A stretch of DNA of 64,000 nt from Sediminibacterium sp. C3 (lineage in GTDB: Bacteria; Bacteroidota; Bacteroidia; Chitinophagales; Chitinophagaceae), in NCBI RefSeq assembly GCF_000508085.1, contig NZ_KI669560.1, positions 2,788,254 to 2,852,253 on the forward strand, given 5' to 3'. Position 1 is the first letter of the stretch; every line of letters starts with the position of its first letter. Under the pieces are notes generated by a model. It was not told where the DNA came from. It made no database searches and worked only from the letters and a program-made list of their open reading frames with translations. The translations under genes and the position numbers were made by a program. Below are positions 47,239 through 62,421 of the stretch, in pieces.

Positions 47239-47290
47239 TTGTAAACATTTAATATTCTGGCAAAATACCTTCATTAAAAAACGTCGGACA

Positions 47291-47308
47291 ATGGGCTGTT
47301 CAGCCCAT
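47291..47308. promoter_or_regulatory. 18-bp palindrome ATGGGCTGTTCAGCCCAT (operator candidate, site 1)
   Basis: Perfect dyad, ATGGGCTG-TT-CAGCCCAT, between the lipoprotein gene (minus, start 47238) and the DUF6498-like gene (plus). About 23 nt closer to the lipoprotein gene is a TATTTTG box. The same outer arms occur at 60485-60502. Confidence 0.7.
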
Positions 47309-47326: not shown

Positions 47327-47923
47327 TTGTATTTTGCAACTATCAAAAAGTCAACCTTTTCCCTTTATTCGGCAGTCAATTTTTTCTTTGCTGTCTTATT
47401 GCCCGGCTATAGTTTATTAATAGGCGACAGTACCATATTTTACCTGATTTACCTGTATTGGTGGCAAGAGCTATTAGCATCGGCCATTGAAGGGATTTAT
47501 TATGCAAAAAACCGGCAAGCCTATCCGGAAATTTCAACCAATCCGTTTTGGGCCAGACTTTTTTTGTTATTCGTGTACTTTGTATTCATCGTTATATTTT
47601 TTGGCTTGGTCAGTGATTGGGGGAGCAATCTGCGCATCAAAAAAAATCTTGAAATCTTTTTGTTCAAAGATGTTTTTTTCATGATAAACCTGGTAGGATT
47701 GGTAATGAATGACTGGTTACACAAAAAGTCTGCCACCCAAAAACTTATCATCAGCAACGATCCGTTCAAGGGGAGAATGATGGTGATGCATATCTCCATT
47801 ATATTAGGGGGTGCCACCTTATTTATTGGCAATACAGCCTGGGCTGGATTTCCATTCCTATTGATTAAAGCCTATATGGATTTCAAACAGCAAAACAGGG
47901 AAATTAAAGCCAATATCCTTTAA
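47327..47923 (+). CDS. DUF6498-like integral membrane protein
   Basis: About 198 residues with four or five hydrophobic segments (SLYSAVNFFFAVLLPGYSLL, IFYLIYLYWWQELLASAIEG, LFLLFVYFVFIVIFFGLVSD, ISIILGGATLFIGNTAWAGF). YWWQELLASAIEGIYYAKN matches the DUF6498 pattern of a Trp/Glu pair after the second helix. No ATG lies in frame near the beginning; TTG at 47327 is the first start codon, so the true start is uncertain. A TATTTTG box overlaps 47330-47336. It ends in a 4-nt reciprocal overlap with the response regulator gene. Confidence 0.65.
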   Translation: MYFATIKKSTFSLYSAVNFFFAVLLPGYSLLIGDSTIFYLIYLYWWQELLASAIEGIYYAKNRQAYPEISTNPFWARLFLLFVYFVFIVIFFGLVSDWGSNLRIKKNLEIFLFKDVFFMINLVGLVMNDWLHKKSATQKLIISNDPFKGRMMVMHISIILGGATLFIGNTAWAGFPFLLIKAYMDFKQQNREIKANIL

Positions 47924-60413: not shown

Positions 60414-60484
60414 TTACTAATCTTAACGTGAAGAAAAAACGATTTGATTCTTCGCCGAAAGTATTTAATAAAAGATTTCTGCCT

Positions 60485-60502
60485 ATGGGCCGCACAGCCC
60501 AT
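60485..60502. promoter_or_regulatory. 18-bp palindrome ATGGGCCGCACAGCCCAT (operator candidate, site 2)
   Basis: Same ATGGGC/GCCCAT arms and the same 18-bp length as at 47291-47308, with centre CCGCACAG-like rather than CTGTTCAG. On the minus strand, a TACTTTCG box follows 21 nt later, comparable to the 23 nt at site 1, upstream of the lipoprotein gene that starts at 60413. Confidence 0.68.
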
Positions 60503-61306: not shown

Positions 61307-61888
61307 TTACTGAAGTGTCTCTCCCCGCTGCAATTTAGCAAGAACAGACAACTCTTTGCGATTGGCCTTGTAAATGAACCAGGCAAGTACCCCAAGGCTA
61401 CCGAAACCTGAGAAGACAAAATAAAGATAAACCCCGTTGGAAAATTCCTGTTTAAATACAGGAAGCAATAGTACAAAACCAATTATATAAGTAGCATAAA
61501 GCAAGGGAGTGATTACCAGGTGCAATATTCTCCGTTTGCTATAAAAAGCGGTGGACTGTTGCAGAAAAGTGCTAAAATCTACCAATCGATCTAATTGCTG
61601 AAACTGAAGTGTATTGATCCACTCCAGAACAATACGGATGGCAAGCGAGCCAATCATTAGCAATAAGCCAATAGAAAAGGTTGTAAAGCTAAAGCCAGTG
61701 TATGTTGCAAAGTAAGCGATAAGGATAAATACGGTTAGTGACAGCAGGCCAATCGTCCAGCGAAATTTAGCTTTCACCTGTTTTGCTTGTTCTTCGGACA
61801 ACTGCATCAGTTGTTCCGGCATTGGACGTTGAGCCCCTATACCAGACTGTTGTTGCCAGGCTTGTTCTAAGTTGGTAAATGGTTTCAT
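61307..61888 (-). CDS. Four-helix membrane protein coupled to an ECF sigma factor (anti-sigma candidate)
   Basis: 193 residues: a cytoplasmic N-terminal helical region of about 60 residues (QAWQQQSGIGAQRPMPEQLM, EEQAKQVKAKFRWTI) and four hydrophobic segments (IGLLSLTVFILIAYFATYTG, FSIGLLLMIGSLAIRIVLEW, HLVITPLLYATYIIGFVLLL, GVYLYFVFSGFGSLGVLAWF). It overlaps the sigma factor gene by 4 nt, so the pair is translationally coupled. By position it is a likely membrane anti-sigma factor, but no RskA/ZAS-type domain is recognised. Confidence 0.65.
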   Translation of the reverse strand: MKPFTNLEQAWQQQSGIGAQRPMPEQLMQLSEEQAKQVKAKFRWTIGLLSLTVFILIAYFATYTGFSFTTFSIGLLLMIGSLAIRIVLEWINTLQFQQLDRLVDFSTFLQQSTAFYSKRRILHLVITPLLYATYIIGFVLLLPVFKQEFSNGVYLYFVFSGFGSLGVLAWFIYKANRKELSVLAKLQRGETLQ

Positions 61889-62421
61889 ATCTGTACACAG
61901 TTTGATAGTTGTTGTTTAATACGGTGAATGCGAACACGGAGGGTTTCTTCTCTCAAGCCTACTACTTCTGCAATGGCGCTGTATTCCAATCCCTCTAAAA
62001 CCATCAGTATAATGACCTTACCCGTTTCATCCAGCTGCTGAATGCAGCCATACATTTTCTTAAGGCGTTCTTCCATCACAGGATTGTAAGCTTCGGCCGC
62101 CATTTCGGGTAACTGATCGGTTTTAATTTCTTTTTTCACAGAAGCTTTACGCAAATATGTAAGACAGGTATTCACGGCAATTCGATAGAGCCAGGTACTG
62201 ATTTTTGCTTCGGCACGGAATTTAGACAGGTGTTGCCAAACTTTCATGAACACTTCCTGAGTGGCATCCGCAGCCAGGCTTTCTTCTCCACTGAAATACC
62301 CTATACACAGACGGAAAATAGCGGCATAATGCTCTTCATAAATGCGTGTAAACAATTGCTGATCGGCCACTTTACTGAATATTTTCTTTGATTTTATTGA
62401 TATACCATTCTGGCTGATCAT
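61885..62421 (-). CDS. ECF-type RNA polymerase sigma factor
   Basis: 178 residues if started at ATG 62421; a GTG at 62370 (VADQQLFTRIYEEHY), 1 nt after the upstream stop, is the more homologous start and drops 17 residues encoded over the end of the hydrolase gene. Region 2 is FTRIYEEHYAAIFRLCIGYF, then SLAADATQEVFMKVWQHLSK, and region 4 shows LEGLEYSAIAEVVGLREETL and RVRIHRIKQQL. It is coupled by 4 nt overlap to a four-helix membrane protein that may anchor it. The regulated signal is unknown. Confidence 0.93.
   Translation of the reverse strand: MISQNGISIKSKKIFSKVADQQLFTRIYEEHYAAIFRLCIGYFSGEESLAADATQEVFMKVWQHLSKFRAEAKISTWLYRIAVNTCLTYLRKASVKKEIKTDQLPEMAAEAYNPVMEERLKKMYGCIQQLDETGKVIILMVLEGLEYSAIAEVVGLREETLRVRIHRIKQQLSNCVQI

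Follow-up and report, generated by a model that had tools for sequence, protein, structure and literature searches.

A candidate operator linked to a LuxR-type two-component system precedes four exported-protein operons in Sediminibacterium sp. C3

Introduction

The half-sites of the response regulator NarL have the consensus TACYYMT. NarL binds two inverted 7-bp elements that are 2 bp apart, and one such site, located just upstream of the -35 element or at -44.5, can activate transcription (PMC7419079). The tra box of TraR is 18 bp long, class II tra boxes are located about 45 nt upstream, and one box can serve divergent operons (PMC3907764). For the LuxR-type response regulators of Bacteroidota, operators and targets are little known. 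A limited literature search yielded neither a described case of operator and targets for these regulators nor a paper on DUF6252 lipoproteins.

We analysed a stretch of 64,000 nucleotides from Sediminibacterium sp. C3 (hereafter the window; C4:2788254-2852253 of the 3.22-Mb genome), which encodes a NarL/LuxR-type response regulator, P0006, near an 18-bp palindrome. P0006 belongs to the same family as NarL (receiver plus GerE domain), and the palindrome has the same half-site geometry as the 7-2-7 operators of NarL at the yeaR and ogt promoters of Escherichia coli, with a predicted position near -43 versus -44.5 for NarL (PMC7419079). However, the half-site is TGGGCYG, and the signal, the promoter type (TAnTTT boxes) and the targets also differ. 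The locus resembles the TraR system in its GerE-type DNA-binding domain, its 18-bp dyad, a predicted class II position near -45 and a possible divergent-operon layout (PMC3907764), whereas TraR senses quorum signals and lacks a receiver domain, and the letters of the tra box are different.

The closest solved full-length structures to P0006 are those of VraR/LiaR (5hev, 7ve6), which are paired with the VraS/LiaS kinases. The LiaS model matches the proposed partner kinase P0007 through the kinase core, and VraR/LiaR also have a small envelope regulon. In contrast, their phylum, operator and targets are different, P0007 scored 80.9 bits against the LiaS model, far below the 450-bit cut-off of the LiaSR/VraSR equivalog level, and we claim no orthology. 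The kind of regulation proposed here is already known, and the small regulon is new. Sequence alone is enough to propose its regulator, its operator and a short list of targets; it offers a first way into the function of DUF6252 lipoproteins and a compact, testable case of a recognition helix and an operator changing together.

Palindromes in the window and in the genome

Both operator-type palindromes on which the sequence-only reading was based were recovered by a sequence search of the window, and they are its only exact matches to ATGGGCN6GCCCAT. Site 1, ATGGGCTGTTCAGCCCAT (47291..47308), lies between the DUF6252 lipoprotein gene on the minus strand and the DUF6498 gene on the plus strand, and is conserved in a sister species and a distant relative. 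Site 2, ATGGGCCGCACAGCCCAT (60485..60502), lies between a TauE/SafE gene and the gene of a 439-aa lipoprotein. Site 1 had been called a perfect dyad; it is only near-perfect, with 8 of 9 pairs complementary and the TT at the centre unpaired, while site 2 has 7 of 9 complementary pairs.

The pattern occurred at exactly four places in the whole genome, and its reversed control at none. Two sites had been reported, which holds for the window (site 1 at C4:2835544 and site 2 at C4:2848738), but the chromosome carries two more (site 3 at C4:1564645 and site 4 at C4:2926836). All four are intergenic promoter sites, 37-71 nt upstream of exported-protein genes, and none is in coding sequence; an equal frequency in coding sequence had been named as an observation that would speak against an operator. 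Within the six-base spacer left free in the search, the four sites also agree, with a conserved YG..CR and the consensus ATGGGCYGNNCRGCCCAT. The resulting layout, TGGGCYG-NN-CRGCCCA with A/T flanks, consists of two inverted 7-bp half-sites 2 bp apart, and is found at all four sites as well as at the sites of the metagenome-assembled genome (MAG) SJ364 and Flavisolibacter longurius described below.

Searched across the genome with this fuller pattern, there were no matches at one mismatch, one at two mismatches and 11 at three. Altogether the fuller pattern matched 16 times and its reversed control 21 times, and the matches with two or three mismatches are at control level. By this measure the regulon is no larger, and the candidate fifth site, with two mismatches, was rejected as lying inside coding sequence. 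Hence, the set of four sites is closed and sharp. No exact match was found in 397 other Chitinophagales genomes, together very roughly 1.5-2 Gb, in which the reversed control matched five times; about 0.01 copies are therefore expected in a genome of 3.22 Mb. Among 61 sampled Sediminibacterium genomes, two carry the motif and the others have no exact copy.

Promoter boxes

On the minus strand, a -7-like box follows each palindrome of the window at the previously reported distance of 21-23 nt: TATTTTGC at 23 nt from site 1 (47260..47267), toward the DUF6252 lipoprotein gene, and TACTTTCG at 21 nt from site 2 (60456..60463). A second TATTTTGC box, absent from the earlier reading, lies on the plus strand 21 nt from site 1 (47330..47337), facing DUF6498, and might be a divergent promoter. 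All three boxes are consensus matches only. The DUF6498 frame (P0005; 47327..47923, plus strand; PF20108, 33.2 bits) encodes a membrane protein that is a possible second target of site 1, and its start codon is uncertain. In the region 47327-47345 it has no ATG near the N-terminus, and its only early start, TTG at 47327, overlaps the plus-strand box, so that either DUF6498 has an unusual start codon or this box is not its promoter.

A TAnTTT box was present 21-23 nt from the palindrome in three of the four gene-side promoters, while site 4 had no clear -7 box. TAnTTT occurs at 20-24 nt from 2.7% of the AT-rich positions in the window, which gives a probability of about 8e-5 for three out of four. 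From these three promoters, and taking -12 to -5 as the extent of the 8-base box (PMC9723704), the palindrome is predicted to be centred at about -42.5 to -44.5; class II activator sites have their centre near -41 to -45. The -33 region beside it has no good box.

The SM5 box of Flavobacterium psychrophilum, TAnnTTGY, fits TATTTTGC exactly at sites 1 and 3, and SM5 genes in that species include envelope functions and lipoproteins (PMC9723704). In contrast, TACTTTCG at site 2 and TAGTTTTG in F. longurius do not match TAnnTTGY. A shared alternative sigma factor is therefore not supported, as the SM5-type box is found at the promoters of sites 1 and 3 only.

Regulator and kinase

The sequence-only reading had placed a LuxR-type two-component pair beside site 1, and domain matches bear this out. 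The regulator P0006 (47920..48579, minus strand), the proposed binder of the palindrome, has a receiver followed by a GerE domain (PF00072, 80.5 bits; PF00196, 68.7 bits; both above cut-off). P0006 and its aligned orthologs have the Asp that accepts the phosphoryl group, within LMDIQMP, and also, within MITIYD and ILKET, the Thr and Lys that are conserved in receivers. The membrane histidine kinase P0007 (48570..49949, minus strand), its proposed partner, has HisKA_3 and HATPase_c domains (PF07730, 36.3 bits; PF02518, 44.9 bits) and the H box ARDLHDSLG.

Kinase, regulator, site and DUF6252 gene follow one another on one strand, with the P0006 gene 612 bp from site 1 and the convergent DUF6498 gene in between. 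The kinase and the motif were found in the same two of the 61 sampled genomes of the genus. Taken alone this co-occurrence is weak, since the sister species have much else in common.

Conservation in Sediminibacterium salmoneum and in distant genomes

All four orthologous sites in S. salmoneum NBRC 103935 are identical letter for letter, and in SJ364 a site precedes an ortholog of the site-1 lipoprotein. The motif was thus retained in relatives, the second test proposed on the basis of the window. Flanks in S. salmoneum are nearly unchanged at three of the four sites, which therefore provide little evidence of conservation. At site 4, however, 50 of 244 aligned bases (20%) were changed in the 300-nt upstream flank, with 112 additional gap columns, whereas the 68 nt downstream had seven changes and the palindrome none. 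An unchanged palindrome amid a diverged and gapped upstream flank points to purifying selection on the site-4 palindrome and its promoter. In the same genome, P0002, the 439-aa lipoprotein, has an ortholog in two overlapping pieces in different frames, 96-97% identical (C1:49944-51261), which reflects either a frameshift or an error in sequencing.

A scan of about 85,000 species genomes for palindromes with a TAnTTT box 20-24 nt behind them yielded ten stretches, three of them from S. salmoneum. SJ364 has its only exact site in 3.1 Mb located 5 nt past the stop codon of a P0006 ortholog (65% identity) and upstream of a DUF6252 lipoprotein gene whose product is 57% identical to P0001, the lipoprotein behind site 1. 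F. longurius likewise has a single exact site in 5.7 Mb, 16 nt past the stop codon of a P0006 ortholog (66% identity) and upstream of an exported RCC1 protein; the regulator gene is preceded by that of a 48%-identical full-length kinase. Sediminibacterium sp. C3 itself shows the same gene order, except that DUF6498 separates the regulator from the site. Because these genomes were found through the motif and were not picked for the regulator, the adjacency is independent sequence evidence. In UBA6661 (Bacteroidota MAG; L052/L107:7235-7252), a small lipoprotein gene is preceded by an exact palindrome, 23 nt from which lies TAATTTGC. This MAG has no close P0006 ortholog (best 41%), perhaps because the regulator is missing from the bin. 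The matches in Lachnospiraceae, Desulfobacteraceae and bin65 were dismissed as chance, being in coding sequence or without an exported-protein context.

The regulators of the motif-bearing genomes form one clade with that of G328 (100/100 support). This clade has the common recognition helix FTVKRHIENIY, while the eight other regulators in the tree have TVRKH or TVRRH. With the single exception of UBA6661, the site is restricted to genomes with a regulator of the P0006-type clade. The G328 member is 57% identical, and the nearest motif match in its genome has one mismatch and lies before an exported protein, away from the regulator. Among regulators of at most 51% identity, no matching palindrome was found beside those whose flanks were read.

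Proposed mechanism and alternative explanations

The palindrome is probably the operator of P0006, which, phosphorylated by P0007, would activate four exported-protein promoters. The membrane kinase P0007 would respond to a presumably envelope-related signal and phosphorylate P0006. A P0006 dimer would then bind TGGGCYG-NN-CRGCCCA at about -43, beside a -33 region that lacks a good box, and recruit RNA polymerase to the four promoters. The expected outputs are the DUF6252 lipoprotein (perhaps with the divergent DUF6498), the 439-aa lipoprotein, a TPR-MORN-DUF6252 operon and an operon of a secreted protein and a lipoprotein. The DNA itself shows that there are four sites, that they stand in promoters and are conserved, and that they are linked to the regulator in independent genomes. 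The proposed assignment to P0006 is well supported, because the sites of SJ364 and F. longurius directly follow P0006 orthologs, which likewise favours the original suggestion that one regulator, perhaps the neighbouring one, controls a small envelope regulon. Somewhat short of an even chance is a further reading, in which Bacteroidota have a previously undescribed, sparsely scattered signalling cassette of a membrane kinase, a regulator with the FTVKRHIE helix and an operator that precedes the gene of an exported protein, be it a DUF6252 lipoprotein or not. In two species of Sediminibacterium this cassette would have become a four-operon envelope regulon.

Among the alternatives, repression and a different regulator are live rivals, and the terminator and chance readings are disfavoured. 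P0006 might bind and repress, occupying about -51 to -34 and blocking RNA polymerase until the signal changes. The sign of regulation is not readable from sequence, and the site borders on the -33 region, from which repressors are also able to act. However, class II activation by NarL and TraR usually has just this layout, with one dyad at a constant distance, its centre near -43, and no recognisable -33 box (PMC7419079, PMC3907764), so repression appears unlikely, and activation by phosphorylated P0006 is the most likely reading because both geometry and predicted position match NarL and the class II tra boxes. Slightly less probable still is a genuine operator of another dimeric regulator encoded elsewhere, with the neighbouring two-component pair as a bystander. 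Such a regulator would explain why UBA6661 has a site without a close P0006 ortholog, and why only one of the four sites of Sediminibacterium sp. C3 itself is near the P0006 gene, but not why SJ364 and F. longurius each have their one exact site less than 20 nt from a P0006 ortholog, when the chance of a site within even a kilobase of the ortholog is about 1e-3 or less in each genome. It is also at odds with the recognition helix and the motif going together.

The palindromes could also form RNA hairpins, as part of a terminator or a 5' leader, or be what is left of a small repeat. Those of SJ364, F. longurius and site 2 do come after a same-strand stop codon, and site 2 was listed as terminator-like on the plus strand. 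Yet the tails on the strand of the upstream gene, AGGCAGAAATC, TGTCAGAAACT and AGGCCAACAAA, have no T run, site 1 lies between divergent genes, and promoter boxes are located downstream of the palindromes; we rejected a terminator or hairpin on these grounds. Repeat remnants agree poorly with only four copies and the lack of a longer repeat around them, and this whole group of explanations is very improbable. A chance resemblance of two palindromes can be practically dismissed: matches in the window are at chance level when two mismatches are allowed, but four exact sites stand against an expectation of about 0.01, and their context is conserved in other genomes.

Predicted target genes

The genes behind sites 1 and 2 had both been read as lipoprotein genes, and both products have lipobox-type signal peptides (GAC and TSC, respectively). 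Across the regulon this description proved too narrow, as the predicted targets are exported proteins generally and not lipoproteins only. P0001 (46669..47238, minus strand) is the DUF6252 protein (PF19765, 30.8 bits, cut-off 27.2) whose ortholog lies behind the palindrome in SJ364. P0002 (59094..60413, minus strand), of 439 aa, has no family match.

Site 3 precedes a likely operon for a TPR protein, a MORN protein whose tail is of the DnaJ-like CxxCxGxG type, a DUF6252 protein and an exported protein of 265 aa. This DUF6252 protein is a paralog of the site-1 lipoprotein (30% identity, E 1.4e-13), so that two of the four transcription units behind the sites contain a DUF6252 protein. Site 4 is located ahead of the genes of a secreted protein with a CxxCxGxG tail and a 418-aa lipoprotein. 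The CxxCxGxG tails of the site-3 and site-4 operons align weakly (E 0.006). By eye P0002 resembles the site-4 lipoprotein, but the two were rejected as paralogs because their alignment is not significant (E 0.06).

An Rfam search near the sites matched a tRNA near site 3 only, and an IS3-type transposase pair lies directly 3' of the site-3 operon (L034:5022-6241). Upstream of site 4, about 390 nt have no long ORF and no Rfam match (L004:1519-1906); this stretch is partly diverged in S. salmoneum, with indels. The surroundings of site 2 include, upstream of TauE/SafE, a gene for a probable ECF-type sigma factor (61885-62421), followed by a membrane protein gene (61307-61888).
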